Below, one piece after another: positions 47,531 to 59,771 of a stretch of 64,000 nucleotides of DNA. A program made the translations under genes and the position numbers. The first letter of the stretch is position 1; each line of letters opens with the position of its first letter. Source of the stretch: Sphingobacteriales bacterium (GTDB lineage: Bacteria; Bacteroidota; Bacteroidia; Chitinophagales; CAIOSU01); NCBI GenBank assembly GCA_027486795.1, contig JAIXOI010000023.1, positions 62,001 through 126,000 of the forward strand. Direction: 5' to 3'. Under the pieces are notes generated by a model. The model worked only from the letters and a program-made list of their open reading frames with translations, was not told the DNA's origin and searched no databases.

Positions 47531-48538
47531 TTACTCTAATTCCAAATCCCTTTTTTCTATTTCCTTTTTTACTTCTGCTATTAATTGCTGTTCGGTAGGC
47601 AAATACAACTTATACTCACTAGCAATAATGGTCTGGTTGTCTTCAGGCAATGAAATTTTTACTACCGCATTGTTTTTATCGGCACAAAGCAAGATGCCGA
47701 TAGTCTTATTCTCAAAGTCTCTCTTTTCGAACCGGTCGTAATAATTTACATACATCTGCAATTGACCAATATCCTGATGGGTAAGCTTGGTCGTTTTGAT
47801 TTCGACAATCACAAAACATTGCATTAAGCGATTGTAAAATACCAAGTCGATAAAAAACTCATCGCCGTCAATATGCAAACGCTTTTGCCTAGCCACAAAA
47901 GCAAAACCATTTCCCAATTCAAGCAAAAAATCGTGTAAGTGGGTAATAATAGCTTGTTCAAGATCTTTCTCATAATAAGACGCCTCACGATGCAGTCCTA
48001 AAAACTCAAGATACATGGGGTCTTTAATGATTTCTTTAGCTGCAATAGGTTCCTTTTCGTTGCGCGCCACTGCAAGCACATTTTCTCTCTCGTTACTCAT
48101 CAATAAGCGCTCCCAAAGGTTGCTGTATATTTGGCGTTCTAGCTGTCGTGTCGTCCAATTGTTTTTAATAGCCTCCGCAATATAAAACGCTCTTTTGTCG
48201 TCACTCTCAATCCGCATAAGCATTTTGTAGTGTGTCCATCCCAATTGCGAACGCAGTGCGTTCGCAATTGGGAATGTGCGGTAAAACTGTCGAAACAGCT
48301 CGATTTGTCGTTTCGAAAACCCGCTTCCGTACTCGGGCTCAAGTTGCTCAGCTATAAATTGGATAAGATACTGTCCATAATCGGCACGGTCTTTACCTGC
48401 TTGCTCTTCTTCAAAAATACGCTGCCCTATGTGCCAGTACATTATAGTGCGCTCATGGTCAACCAATCTAATAGCCTTATCTCTAGCACCATGGATTAGT
48501 ACTTTTATGTCGGATACTATAGATTGACTGATAATCAT
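47531..48538 (-). CDS. DUF1016 (YhcG) PDDEXK nuclease family protein, paralog 1
   Basis: N-terminal IMYWHIGQRIFEEEQAGKDRADYG, QLGWTHYKMLMRI; C-terminal DGDEFFIDLVFYNRLMQCFVIVEIKTTKLTHQDIGQLQMYVNYYD. Confidence 0.95.
   Translation of the reverse strand: MIISQSIVSDIKVLIHGARDKAIRLVDHERTIMYWHIGQRIFEEEQAGKDRADYGQYLIQFIAEQLEPEYGSGFSKRQIELFRQFYRTFPIANALRSQLGWTHYKMLMRIESDDKRAFYIAEAIKNNWTTRQLERQIYSNLWERLLMSNERENVLAVARNEKEPIAAKEIIKDPMYLEFLGLHREASYYEKDLEQAIITHLHDFLLELGNGFAFVARQKRLHIDGDEFFIDLVFYNRLMQCFVIVEIKTTKLTHQDIGQLQMYVNYYDRFEKRDFENKTIGILLCADKNNAVVKISLPEDNQTIIASEYKLYLPTEQQLIAEVKKEIEKRDLELE
48240..48272. repeat. 33-nt perfect inverted repeat inside DUF1016 paralog 1 coding sequence
   Basis: CCCAATTGCGAACGCA-G-TGCGTTCGCAATTGGG, 16-bp arms, 1-nt centre. 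Confidence 0.97.
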
Positions 48539-48568
48539 GCTTTCGAAAGTTTATCTATAAAAGCTAAA

Positions 48569-50902
48569 TCACTCCGCCCCGCCACTCACTATCCTCACCT
48601 TGGCATACTTCAGCATAATGCGCTTTTGGCCAATGCCGGCAAAAAACAGCGTGGCAATGCGGTTGTTGCCGTCGCCCTCTAAGCTCACTACTTTACCGAT
48701 GCCAAACTTTTCGTGCTCCACTTCCATGCCCGGTTGTATGGTCTTCGGGTCGTCGGCTTTAAAGTCGGCCGATGGCGTGTGGGCCGCTGGGGTAAAGTTG
48801 GGCGTAGCTTGACGCTGTGCCGCGCCCGGGCGCTCGTACAACGATTTGCCCGGTGTCTCTTTGGTGGTGCGGGTTCCGCTGCGCTCCCAAGGGGTATCGG
48901 GGCCGCTGGTAGGCTCAGCACGGCGCACTTTGTGGCCAATAAACTCCAAATTCTTTTCGTCCAACTCTTCAATAAAACGGCTTGGCTCGCTATATATCAA
49001 ATTGCCGAAACGGTAGCGCTGCAGCGCATAGGTTAAGAAAAGGTGACTCTTGGCCCTCGTAACAGCCACATAGTACAAGCGGCGTTCTTCTTCCAACTCT
49101 TCTCGGCTATTCACGCTCATTTGGTTCGGGAAAAGACCTTCCTCCAAACCTACCGCAAACACGCACTCGAACTCCAAACCCTTCGCTGAGTGAATACTCA
49201 TTAGCAATACGCGGTTGGTATCGTCCTTGTCGCTTTCAGTGTCGGTAAGCAGCATAATGTCTTGCAGGTAGGTGCCCAAACTGCGGTCGCTCACGGTTTC
49301 GCCCTCGGCTATTTCGTCGCTTTCGCTAAACTCCTTTATACCGTTCAATAGCTCCTGTATGTTCTCGTAGCGACTAATGCCCTCCACGGTTTTGTCGGTA
49401 TACAGCTCCTTCATAATGCCCGTATGCTTGGCTATATGGCTGGCCAAGTCGTAGGCATTCATGGTTTGCAGCATGGTCGCAAAACTCTTAATCATCATTA
49501 CAAACTCCTCAATCAAGTTCTTGGCCCTGGCATTAAAATCGGGCTGAAACTGTATGGTGCTCAATATGCTCCATAAGTTGGTACCGCGCTCCGAGGCCAG
49601 CACCGTGGCCCTATCCAGCGTGGTATCGCCAATGCCGCGCGTGGGGTAATTAATGATGCGGCGCAACGCCTCTTCATCATTGTGGTTTACCGTTAGTTTT
49701 AGGTACGCCAAAAGGTCCTTAATCTCTTTGCGCTGGTAAAACGACAATCCGCCAAACACCTTGTAAGGGATGTTTTGCCGGCGCAGGGCTTCCTCAAACG
49801 AGCGGCTCTGGGCATTGGTGCGGTACAGTATCGCAAAGTCGTCGCTACGCAAGTGCAGGCGCATTTGGTACTCAAATATGGTATCGGCCACTATGCGGCC
49901 TTCCTCGTTATCGCTCACCGCCTTTACCACCTTAATCTTGTCGCCGCCTTGGCGGTTGGTCCAGATGGTTTTGGGCAACTGGTTTTTGTTGAGGGCAATA
50001 ATCTGGTTGGCAGCCTCTACAATATGCGTGGTGCTGCGGTAGTTTTGCTCCAACTTAAACGTCCGCATATCCGGGTAATCCTTCTCAAAATTGAGGATAT
50101 TCTGAATATCGGCACCGCGGAACGAGTAGATGCTCTGCGCATCGTCGCCCACCACGGTTATGTTCTCGTGCACAGCAGCCAATAGCTTGGTAATCAAGTA
50201 CTGGGACAAGTTGGTATCTTGATACTCATCCACGAGTATATAGTTGAATTTGTGCTGGTACTTGTGCAGCACCTCGGGGTGCGTGGCCAGCAATTCGTAC
50301 ATCTTAAACAGCAGGTCGTCAAAATCCATAGCACCGCTCTGGAAACACTTTTTGGCGTACAGGGCGTATATCTCGGCTATCTTCGGGCGGCCCGATTGGC
50401 TGTCGTCGCTCACCAAATACTTATCCTCCCGGTATTTCTGCGGGCCAATCAGGTTGTTCTTTGCCGCCGAAATACGATTGAAAACCGTTGAGGGTTTATA
50501 CAACTTATCGTTCAGCTCCAGCTCTTTTACAATCTGCTTTACCACGTTTTTGCTATCGCTGCTATCGTAAATGGTAAAGTTGCTGGGGTAGCCAATTTTG
50601 GTGGCTTCCTGCCTCAATATGCGCGCAAAAATGCTGTGAAACGTGCCCATCCACACATTACGCGCCTCGCCGCCAATTACGTGCTCAATGCGCTCACGCA
50701 TTTCTTTGGCCGCCTTGTTGGTAAACGTAAGCGACAGGATGCGGAACGGGTCCACCCCTTTTTCGATCAAATGGGCAATGCGGTAAGTAAGCACCCTGGT
50801 TTTGCCAGAGCCCGGCCCGGCTATTACCATTACAGGGCCACTGGTATTGGTTACAGCCTGCCGCTGTATGTCGTTCAACTCATCCAAATAATTACTGCGC
50901 AT
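48569..50902 (-). CDS. UvrD/PcrA-type superfamily 1 helicase
   Basis: IAGPGSGKTRVLTYRIAHLI, LVDEYQDTNLSQY, VGDDAQSIYSFRGAD, VTRAKSHLFLTYA. Confidence 0.96.
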   Translation of the reverse strand: MRSNYLDELNDIQRQAVTNTSGPVMVIAGPGSGKTRVLTYRIAHLIEKGVDPFRILSLTFTNKAAKEMRERIEHVIGGEARNVWMGTFHSIFARILRQEATKIGYPSNFTIYDSSDSKNVVKQIVKELELNDKLYKPSTVFNRISAAKNNLIGPQKYREDKYLVSDDSQSGRPKIAEIYALYAKKCFQSGAMDFDDLLFKMYELLATHPEVLHKYQHKFNYILVDEYQDTNLSQYLITKLLAAVHENITVVGDDAQSIYSFRGADIQNILNFEKDYPDMRTFKLEQNYRSTTHIVEAANQIIALNKNQLPKTIWTNRQGGDKIKVVKAVSDNEEGRIVADTIFEYQMRLHLRSDDFAILYRTNAQSRSFEEALRRQNIPYKVFGGLSFYQRKEIKDLLAYLKLTVNHNDEEALRRIINYPTRGIGDTTLDRATVLASERGTNLWSILSTIQFQPDFNARAKNLIEEFVMMIKSFATMLQTMNAYDLASHIAKHTGIMKELYTDKTVEGISRYENIQELLNGIKEFSESDEIAEGETVSDRSLGTYLQDIMLLTDTESDKDDTNRVLLMSIHSAKGLEFECVFAVGLEEGLFPNQMSVNSREELEEERRLYYVAVTRAKSHLFLTYALQRYRFGNLIYSEPSRFIEELDEKNLEFIGHKVRRAEPTSGPDTPWERSGTRTTKETPGKSLYERPGAAQRQATPNFTPAAHTPSADFKADDPKTIQPGMEVEHEKFGIGKVVSLEGDGNNRIATLFFAGIGQKRIMLKYAKVRIVSGGAE

Positions 50903-50934
50903 AGGCGTAAAGATAGGGAAAAGTCGATAGCTTG

Positions 50935-51104
50935 CCTCGTTTTAAACGAGGGTCCATGCATGCCTCGCCTCAGGCGATGGGTCGATAGTCCACGGAAAAA
51001 TTGCTACCGATTGCTGTAAAAAACAACTGCTTGCTATCCGTTGTAAATGCTACGGATAGCCCTTGGTTTGAACCTCTGGTTCACCGCTCGGGGCATGGCG
51101 CCCC
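50935..51104. repeat. Cluster of five short palindromes
   Basis: CCTCGTTTTAAACGAGG (50935..50951), imperfect CCTCGCCTCAGGCGATG, GCTATCCGT..ACGGATAGC (51033..51060), TGAACCTCTGGTTCA (51069..51083), GGGGCATGGCGCCCC (51090..51104). Confidence 0.8.
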
Positions 51105-51255
51105 CACGTAGGCCATCATGAATACAAACAGCACCTCGGCAACTATTTATACTAATTTACTACCCGATTTTATTTCTCGCAAATATAAACTCCATTTATT
51201 TTTATGTAAAAATGCAAGTGATTGAGCGTGAGGGAGATTGTTTTTTTGGGGGGGA

Positions 51256-51534
51256 TTACGACTGAATTAATTGCCAATCGCGTTCTTCCAGCCGTTGGCG
51301 GATGGCATCGGGGTTTACGCCTTTGTTGCAGTAGCCGCGTTTTATCAAGTTGCCTTCGGTATCGCATTCGCGCAACTCGAATAGCAGGTTTTCCCAAGTA
51401 TCGGTAATGATGAGGTGTACTAAATCGTTTTCCATGGTATAGGCATCAAAACGCTGGCCTACCCTGAAACCGAACTTCGGTATCGGGCTAGCTTCCGGGA
51501 AGCGCTTTAGGGCGGCGTATTCGGCGGCGGTCAT
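51256..51534 (-). CDS. Hypothetical small protein
   Basis: 92-aa ORF with ATG, codon usage plausible, sole ORF in this stretch. Confidence 0.55.
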   Translation of the reverse strand: MTAAEYAALKRFPEASPIPKFGFRVGQRFDAYTMENDLVHLIITDTWENLLFELRECDTEGNLIKRGYCNKGVNPDAIRQRLEERDWQLIQS

Positions 51535-51600
51535 TTGTTAGTAAAAATACTAAAAAATCTAGTTTCCGTATTGTTTTAGTGTTTTCTTGTTGCGGGTGTT

Positions 51601-52653
51601 TTACTCATCAGCTATTTGTTTGCTTTTGGCTATTTCAATAGCCTTATGCAGTTTTTCTTCCAAAAGCTTCATGCTAGGCAATTGCGTAAGGTATTCGGCT
51701 ACTTTTATGTTGCTCTGGTTTAGCTGCAAAAGCTCTATATGTTCTTCGTTTTTCGATGCACATAGGATTAAACCAATAGGTTTGTTTTCACCTTCTATCG
51801 TTTCATACTTTTCTAGCCACCTCAGGTACAGTTCCATTTGCCCTTTGTAGCCTGCCTCAAATTTTCCAAGTTTCAAATCAATGGCTACCAAACATTTCAA
51901 CCTGCGGTGATAAAAGAGCAGGTCAATATAGTAATCATCATGGCCAATAGTGATTCTTTTCTGCCGGGCCATAAAGGCAAAGTCGGAGCCCAACTCTATA
52001 ATGAACCGCTGTAGCTCTACCAATATGGCACTTTCTAAGTCTTTTTCGCTGTAGGTATCGCTTAAGCCTAAAAAATCAAGTAGGTATGGGTCTTTAAATA
52101 CTAAATCGGGACTTAGCTGTTTTTCTTTCTGCAGTTGGTTTAAATCGTTTTGGATAGTGAGTTCTGGCTTTTTGCTGATGGCGGTACGCTCGTACAGCAT
52201 GGAGTTGATGCGCTCCCTAAACGTGCGAACGCTCCATCTTTCGTGTGCACACATTTCTATATAAAATGCCCGCTTTATAGAGTCTTCTATCGGGATAATG
52301 GCGATAATATGTGTCCAGCTCAATTGTCGTATCACTGATACGACAATCTCTTGGTCAGGGAAAACCTTGGCGAACTGCATCATTCTACGTAGGTTCTTCT
52401 CCGAAAAAGCCGCTCCGTAATCTACACTCAACTGTCTCCACAGTGTAGAGACTATTTCCTTGCCATATAGTTCGGTCCTGTCTTTTCCCGCAACTTCGTC
52501 ATTAATGCGTTTCCCTATTTGCCAGTAAAGCATACTCATGGCTGAGTTTACAGCTACGGCTACTTGTTGCCGGCTTTGCTCAATCAGCTCCTTTACTTCG
52601 TTGTATAGGGGTTTGATTGGTTGGGGGGCTGGATAAAAGTCTTTTGCACTCAT
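51601..52653 (-). CDS. DUF1016 (YhcG) PDDEXK nuclease family protein, paralog 2
   Basis: AMSMLYWQIGKRINDEVAGKDRTELYGKEIV, RQLSWTHIIAIIPIED, DDYYIDLLFYHRRLKCLVAIDLKLGKFEAGYKGQMELYLRWL. Confidence 0.96.
   Translation of the reverse strand: MSAKDFYPAPQPIKPLYNEVKELIEQSRQQVAVAVNSAMSMLYWQIGKRINDEVAGKDRTELYGKEIVSTLWRQLSVDYGAAFSEKNLRRMMQFAKVFPDQEIVVSVIRQLSWTHIIAIIPIEDSIKRAFYIEMCAHERWSVRTFRERINSMLYERTAISKKPELTIQNDLNQLQKEKQLSPDLVFKDPYLLDFLGLSDTYSEKDLESAILVELQRFIIELGSDFAFMARQKRITIGHDDYYIDLLFYHRRLKCLVAIDLKLGKFEAGYKGQMELYLRWLEKYETIEGENKPIGLILCASKNEEHIELLQLNQSNIKVAEYLTQLPSMKLLEEKLHKAIEIAKSKQIADE
52323..52347. repeat. 25-nt perfect inverted repeat inside DUF1016 paralog 2 coding sequence
   Basis: ATTGTCGTATCA-C-TGATACGACAAT, 12-bp arms, 1-nt centre. 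Confidence 0.93.
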
Positions 52654-52704
52654 GGCTTTTCCGTTTCAAACAAATGCATTGGGCGTACCACACTTTCCAT
52701 TACA

Positions 52705-55700
52705 TTATTTAATTTTCTCCATTTCCCCCACAATTTCCTGCGTCTTTACACTCACCGTAGTTACCCGCTTTAGCAAATCGATTACTTGCGCTTTGTAATC
52801 GGCGAAGCGGTAGGTGTTAAATTTTTCGGCTATGGTGGGGTCTTTGGGTGTTTTTTCCTTGTATTGGTCCAGTATCCATTCTAGCGCGCTGCGGTTGCCC
52901 AGCTTGTACTGCCAAGCGGTGGCGGGTATGCCAAGTAGGCTTGTGGCTTCATCTAAAATGATTATGCCCGAATCCTTGTCAGCTTTTAGTTTGGCTTTGG
53001 GCTTTTTGATGTCTTTGTCGGTGGCTTCTTTTAGCGCAAACGGCTCTACGGTTTCGTAGTTAATGTGCAGGTCCATTAGGGTTTTGCCCCAATCGCGCCA
53101 CTTCGCAAAGTCATCATAGAACGGTATCCGCGGAAACTCACGCTTTAGGTTCTGCTCGTACTTAGTGCGGTAGGCGGGGTTGTGCAGCACGGCATAAACG
53201 TAGTGGAAGATGTCTTCTTTGCTTATTACCAGTCCGTAGGTTGCCGCTGGCTCGTGGAATTGTTGAGCTTCATTGCTAGTAAGGTGCGGCTGCTCAAAAC
53301 CTTCATCTGGCAAAAAGCCTGTACTAGCCACGGCTGCTATTTCCGTTTCCTTTACCGCTGGTTGGGCTTTGTAGTATTTGCAGAATTGTTGTAATCCCCA
53401 GTCGGTGATGTTTTCAATGCGGTTGCCCTTTGCATCGAAACGATGCAAAGGAAGGCATTGGCTATCACCTGTAAAATGTAGGTCTATAATGCCATCGGAA
53501 CCTAAGCAATGAAATCCCTTAAGATTGCCTGGTGAATTAATTGCAATGTATTTATTGCGGTTTTGAAAGGAATGAATATCAAACCATTGGTAAGTTCTAC
53601 CATTAAAATGCCTGTCTAAATAAAGGATTTGGTTAAAGTATGGCCTATATGCAGCCTTAATCATTTGTTTGTTATCAAACTCTTTCTTTATTCCCCTTTT
53701 AAGATAGGTCTCCAGATCTTCATCCCACTTAATTAATTGCTTCTCTTTGTAGTCAGCATTCTTTAATGTTTGTTGATACTTCTCAACAAAGAATTTTATT
53801 TTTTTCTCTAATCCGTTTTTCTTTAAATCATATACCCATTCATCTTTTTGAGTAGCAACTCCGCGGGAAAAATTCTCAAATATTGCCTTGCCCGCCTTCC
53901 CCGCTTTCACGTCTTTATCCATCAAAGGCAGCAACGTTTCAAAGTCATTATCCGATTGGTTAATCCAGTTGTTCTTTTTATCGGGGATAATATTGTCAAA
54001 AGGTATATCCTGTAGTTTATGCTCAAATATCCAAGTCAGTTTATCTTCCTTCAGCATATAGTCGTCCAAGGCATGATAGCTTATCCTGCATCTGCCTGTT
54101 CGGTTTTCGTCTTTGCGCACCAGTAGCATAATGGCTACGCCAGTCTGTATGCCAAATACGTTGTGGCTGGTGCCCGCTATTTTCGGGTTGGCCCGCACAT
54201 CGCTTTTGGTATCGAGTATATAGGCAAAGTCAAACTCATCTTGTATACATTTCCTAAACCCGTCAAACGCCCTACTATCAATAAATGAGCGGTTGGTAAT
54301 AAAGGCAATGATGCCGTTGTTGTCCAACCTATCCATCGCCCAGCGGTAAAAGCGGGTATACATATCATACACTACAATTTGGTTTTGGGCAGTGCCATCT
54401 TTTATGTAGCTATCCTTTATCCGCTGGTCAATAATCTTATAGGCTCGGTTCGCATTCTGGAAGTTGTAGTTCTCTTGTTTAGCATTATAAGGCGGGTTGC
54501 CAATAATTACCGAAATCTTGCGGGCATTTTGGTCTTTAATCCGTTCCGCATTTTCAGCCGTTACGGCAAACATGTCGGTTTGCTTACCCTTGTAGCCAAA
54601 GCCCATATTATCCAGCGTATCTACAAAGCACAACCGCTTGTACTCACGGTATTCCTTCATGCGCTGCTTGTAGGTAAACTCAATATTGAGGTTAGCAATA
54701 TAGTAGGGCAATATGGCTATCTCGTTGGCATGTAGCTCATTGGTGTATTTATACTCCAGCTTATCCTTGGGCAGGTAATCAATAATATCGCAAATAAAGG
54801 TACCGGTGCCTGTGGCAGGGTCCATTATCTCCACGCCCTTATCGCCTAGCATTTTGCCAAAGTGCTTGTGCAACAGGTAGTCGGTGCTCTCTATCATAAA
54901 GCGCACTATCTGGTTGGGTGTGTACACCACACCTAGGCGGTCGGCAGCTTTGGGGTTGTAGCTTTTGTAAAAGGTTTCATACACCACTTTCAGGAAAAAC
55001 TGCTTCTCATGGTGGTCGGCAATGGCAGCGGCCCGTGCATTTATTACTTGATAATAGTGTTGGATGGCAGCTAAAACGGTACGGCGGGTAGTACCTGTAA
55101 AAAAGGTATCGAGCACCTTCTCTAATTCCCGGGCAATGTTATTCTCGCGGTGGAAGTGCGATTCATCGAACACGGTATTGAAAATATCCGCCGTAAGAAT
55201 GTGCTGAATCATCATTTCGCGCACATCATCTAGCGTTACCTCTGGGTTAATGCTCTGCTTGCACAGCTCCCAAAAAGCGTTGCGGGCACTTATATACTTT
55301 GGGTTGCCTTTTTCTTGCGCCATGATGTTCTCGCGCAGGGCAGAAGTAACCTTAGGCACATCTTCTTTAAAGCGCTCAATAGCTACATAAAAATCCTTTA
55401 TCTCCTGCCGAACGAAATTGACGAAGGCCAGCAACAGGCGGTCAAGCTTCTCGGCATCTTTCATATTTATGCGCATCACCTCATGCCCTTCTTGATAAAG
55501 AACGGCAGTGCGGCTATCCTCAAATAAGATGTTATCCTTCGGGTAGTTTTTGGCGAATTTCTTGGCTATCTCCTCGTCAATATCGTCGGCCTCGTCCTTC
55601 GCTTCCCAGTAGCCCCAATCCAGTTGCAACGAATCGCGAACAGTGCCGTCGGGTGTAATGGTCTTTTTGCCCACCTTCAGCGAAACCTCGGCTACCAGTA

Positions 55701-55836
55701 TATGCCCCTTTTGCTTGGCGTATTTGTTGAGCAAATTGAAGAACGCTGAGCGTATGGCGGTTTCTTTGCTGGTGCCGCCATAATGGATGTTGTCTTCAAT
55801 CTCTTTGTAATACTGCTGTATGGTAAATACGCTCAT
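52705..55836 (-). CDS. Restriction-modification fusion: N-terminal PDDEXK-like nuclease plus N6-adenine methyltransferase (annotated type ISP/IIG-like)
   Basis: DWGYWEAKDEAD (ExK-like), DPATGTGTFICDIIDYL (motif I), NPPYNAKQ (motif IV); no Walker A/DEAD helicase segment seen. Confidence 0.88.
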   Translation of the reverse strand: MSVFTIQQYYKEIEDNIHYGGTSKETAIRSAFFNLLNKYAKQKGHILVAEVSLKVGKKTITPDGTVRDSLQLDWGYWEAKDEADDIDEEIAKKFAKNYPKDNILFEDSRTAVLYQEGHEVMRINMKDAEKLDRLLLAFVNFVRQEIKDFYVAIERFKEDVPKVTSALRENIMAQEKGNPKYISARNAFWELCKQSINPEVTLDDVREMMIQHILTADIFNTVFDESHFHRENNIARELEKVLDTFFTGTTRRTVLAAIQHYYQVINARAAAIADHHEKQFFLKVVYETFYKSYNPKAADRLGVVYTPNQIVRFMIESTDYLLHKHFGKMLGDKGVEIMDPATGTGTFICDIIDYLPKDKLEYKYTNELHANEIAILPYYIANLNIEFTYKQRMKEYREYKRLCFVDTLDNMGFGYKGKQTDMFAVTAENAERIKDQNARKISVIIGNPPYNAKQENYNFQNANRAYKIIDQRIKDSYIKDGTAQNQIVVYDMYTRFYRWAMDRLDNNGIIAFITNRSFIDSRAFDGFRKCIQDEFDFAYILDTKSDVRANPKIAGTSHNVFGIQTGVAIMLLVRKDENRTGRCRISYHALDDYMLKEDKLTWIFEHKLQDIPFDNIIPDKKNNWINQSDNDFETLLPLMDKDVKAGKAGKAIFENFSRGVATQKDEWVYDLKKNGLEKKIKFFVEKYQQTLKNADYKEKQLIKWDEDLETYLKRGIKKEFDNKQMIKAAYRPYFNQILYLDRHFNGRTYQWFDIHSFQNRNKYIAINSPGNLKGFHCLGSDGIIDLHFTGDSQCLPLHRFDAKGNRIENITDWGLQQFCKYYKAQPAVKETEIAAVASTGFLPDEGFEQPHLTSNEAQQFHEPAATYGLVISKEDIFHYVYAVLHNPAYRTKYEQNLKREFPRIPFYDDFAKWRDWGKTLMDLHINYETVEPFALKEATDKDIKKPKAKLKADKDSGIIILDEATSLLGIPATAWQYKLGNRSALEWILDQYKEKTPKDPTIAEKFNTYRFADYKAQVIDLLKRVTTVSVKTQEIVGEMEKIK

Positions 55837-59691: not shown

Positions 59692-59713
59692 GAGATATTC
59701 GCTTTGAAAAAAA

Positions 59714-59740
59714 GGCCCGCGCATCAATGATGCGCGGGCC
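59714..59740. terminator. Bidirectional intrinsic terminator between BCCP-like gene and porV
   Basis: AAAAA-GGCCCGCGCATCA-A-TGATGCGCGGGCC-TTTT, 13-bp stem. Confidence 0.95.
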
Positions 59741-59771
59741 TTTTATATTTTGCGGGGATTTGTTTCGGGTA

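Follow-up and report, generated by a model that had tools for sequence, protein, structure and literature searches.

Genes of the YhcG/DUF1016 nuclease family contain a 27-bp palindromic DNA element within their own coding sequence. Computation shows that the element is conserved at the nucleotide level, that its symmetry is a symmetry of DNA, that it hardly occurs outside DUF1016 loci and that its variable bases are coupled to residues of the DNA-binding domain. The palindrome is very probably the cognate DNA-binding site of the product of the same gene, a prediction made from these sequence patterns. No description of the element in open-access papers, and no established function for YhcG/DUF1016, was found in the open-access literature searched.

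The window, the whole 64-kb stretch of DNA that was analysed, contains two genes of this family (Table 1). In each product the Pfam domain DUF1016_N, a putative ParB/Noc-like helix-turn-helix (HTH) domain, is followed by YhcG_C, a PD-(D/E)XK nuclease domain with the D...(E/D)xK motif (E 1e-40 to 8e-57), and this arrangement places both genes in the YhcG/DUF1016 family. They account for both DUF1016_N matches in the window's own genome. At 51256-55836, a Type ISP restriction-modification gene and then gene 2 lie on one strand with a 51-nt gap, and the homologue L111 adjoins hsdM; restriction-modification operons may include DUF1016 genes.

In gene 1, perfect symmetry reaches from 48239 to 48273, with arms of 17 nt around a 1-nt centre; in gene 2 it covers 52323-52347, with arms of 12 nt around a 1-nt centre. 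Both centres fall on the first base of one shared codon, and the W of the Q-L-(G/S)-W-T-H motif follows 18 nt later. The preliminary description had reported that, at the same codons before QL(G/S)WTH, both paralogues have perfect palindromes centred on a single nucleotide. This is confirmed, and the coordinates for gene 2 stand as described; the palindrome of gene 1 runs 1 bp further on each side than had been claimed. The imperfect copy at 52430-52456 in gene 2, which sits at the 'IVxxLxxQL..YG' position, was absent from that description.

Among near-perfect palindromes of the 64-kb window, those of genes 1 and 2 rank second and third in length. The other long palindrome (59710-59744) has perfect 17-bp arms, AAAAGGCCCGCGCATCA-A-TGATGCGCGGGCCTTTT, lies just past the end of an ORF and looks like a bidirectional terminator. 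A perfect 11-bp inverted repeat with a 3-nt loop, CCTTTGCATCG-AAA-CGATGCAAAGG, is located at 53427-53451 in the Type ISP restriction-modification gene beside gene 2, and its format differs from that of the 27-bp element.

Table 1. Coordinates, within the window, of the two DUF1016/YhcG genes, their palindromic elements and the codons of predicted DNA-contacting residues.
Feature	Position	Strand	Sequence or basis
DUF1016/YhcG nuclease gene 1	47531..48538	(-)	335 aa; Pfam DUF1016_N + YhcG_C
27-bp element of gene 1	48243..48269, centre 48256	(-)	AATT-GCGAACG-CACTG-CGTTCGC-AATT
Predicted DNA-recognition helix codons, gene 1	48275..48313	(-)	alignment to HMM columns 78/81/82
Key residue codons, gene 1 helix	R77 48308-48310, E80 48299-48301, L81 48296-48298	(-)	residue-base covariation
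DUF1016/YhcG nuclease gene 2	51601..52653	(-)	350 aa; Pfam DUF1016_N + YhcG_C; AF2 models
T114 (WTH) codon, gene 2	52312..52314	(-)	aligned with ParB G201 of 'GHAR'; column covaries with offset 3
27-bp element of gene 2	52322..52348, centre 52335	(-)	GATT-GTCGTAT-CAGTG-ATACGAC-AATT
Predicted recognition helix codons, gene 2, residues 85-97	52363..52401	(-)	AF2 helix
Key residue codons, gene 2 helix	K86 52396-52398, R89 52387-52389, R90 52384-52386	(-)	residue-base covariation
Second, imperfect element of gene 2	52430..52456, centre 52443	(-)	AATA-GTCTCTA-CACTG-TGGAGAC-AGTT, 10/13 pairs, same codon phase

The family sample drew DUF1016 genes from related genomes, from viral contigs and from a species-level genome collection that spans Bacteroidota, Proteobacteria, Planctomycetota, Clostridia, Methanosarcina and others. 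The site was scored between the FY and W motifs, with a threshold of at least 10 of 13 pairs. This threshold was reached in 89% of 158 DUF1016 genes, as compared to 1.3% of equal control windows from the same genes. Across these 158 genes the mean best score was 11.2 of 13 pairs at the site, 7.6 in synonymous-codon shuffles drawn with the codon usage of each gene, and 7.2 elsewhere. An independent sample of 98 genes, unused in defining the element, was 94% palindromic, and a clear element is missing from approximately 6–11% of DUF1016 genes. The selection for palindromic DNA proposed in the preliminary description therefore withstands the comparison with codon-shuffled controls, and the feature extends well beyond the two genes in which it was noticed. 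These results confirm that the palindrome is real and general; because it recurs across the family, a chance origin of the window palindromes is excluded. A pure by-product of coding was also considered, and is ruled out by the synonymous shuffles together with the frozen third codon positions described below.

Alignment of 183 distinct elements at their centres gave the consensus 5'-RATT-N7-CASTG-N7'-AATY. The unit has sharp borders: pairing was observed at 75–97% for offsets 1–13 and dropped to chance level at offset 14. Offsets 1–2 and 10–13 are conserved in sequence; offsets 3–9 are variable yet paired, with mutual information of 0.9–1.4 bits. The centre is the first base of a codon in 183/183 elements, and in 111/114 of a new sample. 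The element encodes a short helix that follows the recognition helix and precedes the (L)(G/S)WTH motif; this in gene 1 is the helix preceding QLGWTH and in gene 2 corresponds to helix 101–110 (EIVVSVIRQL) predicted in the AlphaFold2 (AF2) model.

Additional copies occur both within and around the genes. About 10% of genes, gene 2 of the window among them, have a palindrome at the second position, 'IVxxLxxQL..YG', and longer loops carry two to four elements at 36–39-nt spacing. Copies directly 5' of the gene were found at three loci (L005, L082 and L093), with arms identical to those of the internal copy, and in E. coli yhcG, among others, copies follow the stop codon by 12–28 nt. A Mucilaginibacter DUF1016 gene is followed by an intergenic array of approximately six palindromes of the 27-bp type (L099:2991-3532), which have the offset-7 G in common and differ in other arm bases. 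Short DUF1016 genes consisting of the N-domain only, with elements near their 3' ends, were seen at L111:1540-1977 (two elements) and L031:1468-1785 (one element); these could be nuclease-less DNA-binding regulators, or remnants.

The element is essentially restricted to DUF1016 loci. A pattern search allowing up to 3 mismatches found no second copy of the gene 1 palindrome in its own 3.9-Mb genome. In four genomes, every match within two mismatches lay at a DUF1016 locus; another genome set was also searched. The seven exact matches across 250 Bacteroidota-side genomes all belong to DUF1016 genes or fragments, or adjoin them: recognised DUF1016 ORFs contain five, the sixth is in a fragmentary ORF whose translation reads as DUF1016_N, and the seventh directly precedes a DUF1016 gene on its 5' side. 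All seven also had complementary outer arms, a feature outside the search pattern. In viral contigs, a minority of matches were located away from any recognised DUF1016 gene. On a mobile contig with no DUF1016 gene nearby, two tandem elements with one common AATT closely precede a large serine recombinase gene (L327:9938-9985), and on a viral contig an AAA ATPase-like ORF has a solitary Burkholderia-type element, ATTTTCCAGACACTGTCTGGAAAAT, at its 3' end (L330:3207-3231).

The N-terminal domain was compared with known DNA-binding domains. Its AF2 model had a pLDDT of 91.6, and the 13 best Foldseek matches in the PDB were all ParB or Noc, at a weak E of ~0.1. Pfam HTH_ParB matched 33/66 members, with a best E of 3.9e-6 and most individual matches below the Pfam curated cut-off. 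Using hhalign against ParB of related genomes, an E of 5e-5 was obtained, with DUF1016 'LSWTH' aligned on ParB 'xxMGH'. A PDB sequence search for DUF1016 found no relative, and the families listed for DUF1016 proteins include no match to the ParB_N/CTPase domain. Binding of ParB and Noc to their palindromic sites is two-fold symmetric, and their specificity residues lie in the HTH region and an adjacent helix, notably at positions 173 (recognition helix) and 201 (PMC7383237); the residue before the His of GHAR is G201 in ParB and R186 in Noc (PMC7383237). Judged by modest scores and a matching specificity position, DUF1016_N is a ParB/Noc-like HTH.

Covariation between residues and element bases was computed across 209 genes, using predictor residues that are not encoded by the element. 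At HMM column 78, Arg was accompanied by G at offset 7 in 88/89 genes, Lys, Gln, Ala or Asp mostly by C, and Ser or Thr by T or C. At column 81, Glu occurred with C at offset 8 (24/24) and Trp, Tyr or Phe with T. At column 82, both Gln (15/15) and Tyr (56/58) occurred with A at offset 5, and Arg took C or T. The pre-His position, column 106, which aligns with ParB 201, was coupled to offset 3, which was C for Gly (15/15), mostly A for Ser and mostly G for Thr. Columns 134, 135 and 109 couple to offsets 2–4. For offsets 1–9 the top column lies in the DNA-binding domain, above every nuclease-domain column. The couplings match the classical Arg-G, Glu-C and Gln-A preferences, and they match the helix periodicity i, i+3, i+4.

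Kinship was controlled for by using 103 disjoint pairs of relatives with 38–80% identity outside the domain. A switch between G and non-G was seen in 27/31 pairs with an R/non-R switch, as compared to 7/72 pairs without one (p=2.4e-14), and every tested column ranked first against 169 nuclease-domain columns. Because the coupling persists in disjoint relative pairs, shared ancestry does not explain it. Hold-out prediction exceeded the baseline in every split for columns 78, 82 and 106, and fell below it in one of three splits for column 81. Both genes of the window fit the code. Gene 1 has G at offset 7 with R77, C at offset 8 with E80, A at offset 5 with L81 and G at offset 3 with T102; gene 2 has C at offset 7 with K86, T at offset 8 with R89 (T/G in the family) and T at offset 5 with R90 (C/T in the family). 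The arms of the two paralogues differ because their recognition residues differ.

Explanations in which no protein reads the element were weighed against these data. Among unpaired positions at offsets 3–8, G.T and A.C mismatches were equally common (20 and 22, and 6 and 6 in the new sample), so that the excess of G.U over A.C on the sense strand that marks a structured RNA is not seen. The symmetry therefore belongs to the DNA, with neither strand's RNA favoured. An mRNA hairpin had been offered in the preliminary description, and selection on it for translation control, RNA cleavage or frameshifting would fit the strongly conserved pairing and arms that could give a 12-bp stem with a 3-nt loop. 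However, an RNA stem would tolerate the G.T mismatches that are here no commoner than A.C, an RNA loop would not be expected to keep its innermost pair and the CASTG centre, copies exist outside the coding part of the transcript, and the arm bases follow the HTH residues; the hairpin is disfavoured, and we regard it as highly improbable. In 15 close orthologues of the Burkholderia group, variable third codon positions numbered 0/9 in the first element, 17/28 upstream and 32/47 downstream. This element is AT-rich inside visibly GC-rich coding sequence, and older relatives of these genes show compensatory changes in both arms. Selection acts on the nucleotides themselves. Template switching at a quasi-palindrome seeded by the conserved I-x-x-x-L-x-x-Q-L, as a neutral route to symmetry, would sit poorly with these third positions, frozen in the element where neighbours vary, and with the same element in non-coding flanks. 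Template switching does perfect palindromes, and the conserved amino acids favour ATT...AAT ends, but residues outside the element predict its arm bases. The probability left to this process is next to nothing, and as a sole cause it is refuted by the residue-base code.

In-frame insertion of mobile palindromes into a tolerant loop, in the manner of the Rickettsia palindromic elements invoked in the preliminary description or of REP sequences, is very unlikely. It would accommodate the loops with several spaced elements, the intergenic arrays and the few solitary copies in viral or mobile contigs, but the main element holds a homologous position and one phase from archaea to proteobacteria, is nucleotide-invariant within a clade at its length of 27 bp, has no further copies in the window's own genome, is found at DUF1016 genes or fragments in all seven exact matches, and has bases coupled to protein residues. 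Copy multiplication inside the locus is more likely local duplication. Selection for a cruciform, or for structure only, was favoured at first, as copies at one locus differ yet are symmetric; it is unneeded, since the arm bases follow the HTH residues, and the cruciform recognition suggested earlier gives way to a protein-base code that accounts for the variable arms.

The reading that we prefer is that the element is the binding site of its own gene's product, and the self-recognition or autoregulatory site suggested in the preliminary description is strongly supported in silico by the family-wide symmetry and the residue-base covariation. We infer that the N-terminal HTH would bind the two-fold symmetric RATT-N7-CASTG-N7'-AATY as a dimer. 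Offsets 5–9 would be read from the recognition helix, by R77, E80 and L81 in gene 1 and by K86, R89 and R90 in gene 2; offsets 2–4 would be read by the ParB-specificity-homologous residue before the 'H' of GHAR together with a residue in the next helix. Binding in or beside the gene would repress its transcription, as a roadblock or at an operator, and so would keep a dangerous nuclease low. As the site is inside its own coding sequence, it travels with the gene. Given binding, the chances of autoregulation are about even. It is favoured because the sites are essentially limited to their own locus, because some closely precede the start codon and because an unregulated nuclease is dangerous; against simple autorepression stand the 3' copies and the Mucilaginibacter array, which it does not explain.

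The catalytic D and E/D-x-K residues are invariant in 209/209 site-bearing DUF1016 genes, and a role as a cleavage or tethering target of the nuclease, not as an operator, is therefore a live rival. By way of the N-domain, the PD-(D/E)XK domain might be brought to the enzyme's own gene and cut there, for self-limitation, recombination or gene conversion, or the nuclease might be kept inactive, with loss or displacement of the gene setting it free. To these two variants jointly we give a minor but appreciable share of the probability. Consistent with them, nuclease and site are retained together, the sites are essentially restricted to the own locus, truncations, deletions and IS insertions in E. 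coli yhcG cluster at the elements, and N-domain matches elsewhere often stop at elements. Cutting its own gene would, however, be self-destructive unless restrained, palindromes are deletion-prone even without a nuclease, and the element DNA of the Burkholderia group is nearly invariant, not scarred. A self-anchored nuclease, whose only site is its own gene and whose activity is controlled by occupancy beyond repression, is a distinctly doubtful proposal; such an enzyme would either sit inactive on its gene and be released on gene loss, displacement or invasion, or drive recombination of its own gene. If true, it would constitute a one-gene addiction, defence or gene-conversion device with its site written into its own DNA-binding domain.

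A yhcG match was present in 4449 E. coli genomes, of which 1115 carry no full-length copy. Among the alleles examined (L190:5828-6996, L192-L199), deletions, truncations and some IS insertions fall at the second and third internal elements, and these lesions could result from nuclease action or from ordinary palindrome instability. In K-12 yhcG, column 78 is Lys and the first element fits (offset 7 C). The other three K-12 copies carry G at offset 7, suited to an Arg helix as in strain EC2257, and may be relics of an earlier specificity. Between EC2257 (L195) and K-12 the stretch of recognition helix and element differs and the flanks are near-identical, as expected if reader and site were exchanged together.

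YhcG/DUF1016 is a widespread nuclease family that includes E. coli yhcG, and most of its sequenced members now gain a specific predicted DNA ligand. Well over 100 natural protein-site pairs make a ParB-type recognition code readable, which could be of use in DNA labelling. Site and reader lie within ~100 bp of each other and are partly the same DNA, a setting for the evolution of specificity. In both bacteria and archaea, one coding sequence appears to be under simultaneous selection for its operator-like site and for the DNA-binding helix that it encodes.

Several known systems share features with this arrangement. DUF1016 resembles ParB-parS and Noc-NBS in its homologous ParB-type HTH and in its palindromic site, whose two-fold binding is predicted. 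In both cases the recognition helix and the residue before the H of 'GHAR' (201/186, aligned with DUF1016 column 106) set specificity, as the covariation indicates for DUF1016. Read against the base order of parS and NBS, the recognition helix goes with the outer bases and the 201-like residue with the inner bases. In contrast to parS/NBS-type sites of 16 bp, the DUF1016 site has 27 bp with an odd centre and lies inside the binder's own coding sequence. Specificity in DUF1016 is highly diversified, and the protein has a nuclease fusion, no ParB_N/CTPase and no known segregation role. Because ParB_N/CTPase is absent, DUF1016 would act like, but is not classed as, a ParB/Noc protein.

The Rickettsia palindromic elements of Ogata et al. 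are ~100–150 nt long, dispersed in many genes and selfish (PMC4316617). They are alike in being palindromic DNA read in frame in ORFs, whereas the DUF1016 element is 27 bp long, belongs to one family, keeps a homologous position and is nucleotide-conserved, and so falls outside that class. REP classes carry a GTAG/CGTC tag (PMC3733652). As in REP/RAYT systems, short palindromes are here tied to one DNA-acting gene family; however, no GTAG/CGTC tag was noticed in the DUF1016 element, there is no RAYT, copies stay at the DUF1016 locus, and the partner is a PD-(D/E)XK nuclease with a ParB-like HTH, not a Y1 HUH transposase, which sets the element apart from REPs. NucS/EndoMS and Holliday-junction-resolvase-like PD-(D/E)XK nucleases share their nuclease domain with YhcG (PMC1189080; Foldseek 2vld, 5gke). 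This likeness identifies the C-terminal domain of YhcG and leaves the presence of the site unexplained. Intragenic operators are known inside lacZ and galE, and the DUF1016 element is alike in being a predicted repressor-type site inside coding sequence. Unlike those operators, it lies in the binder's own gene, overlaps the codons of the binder's DNA-binding domain and is a feature of a whole nuclease family.
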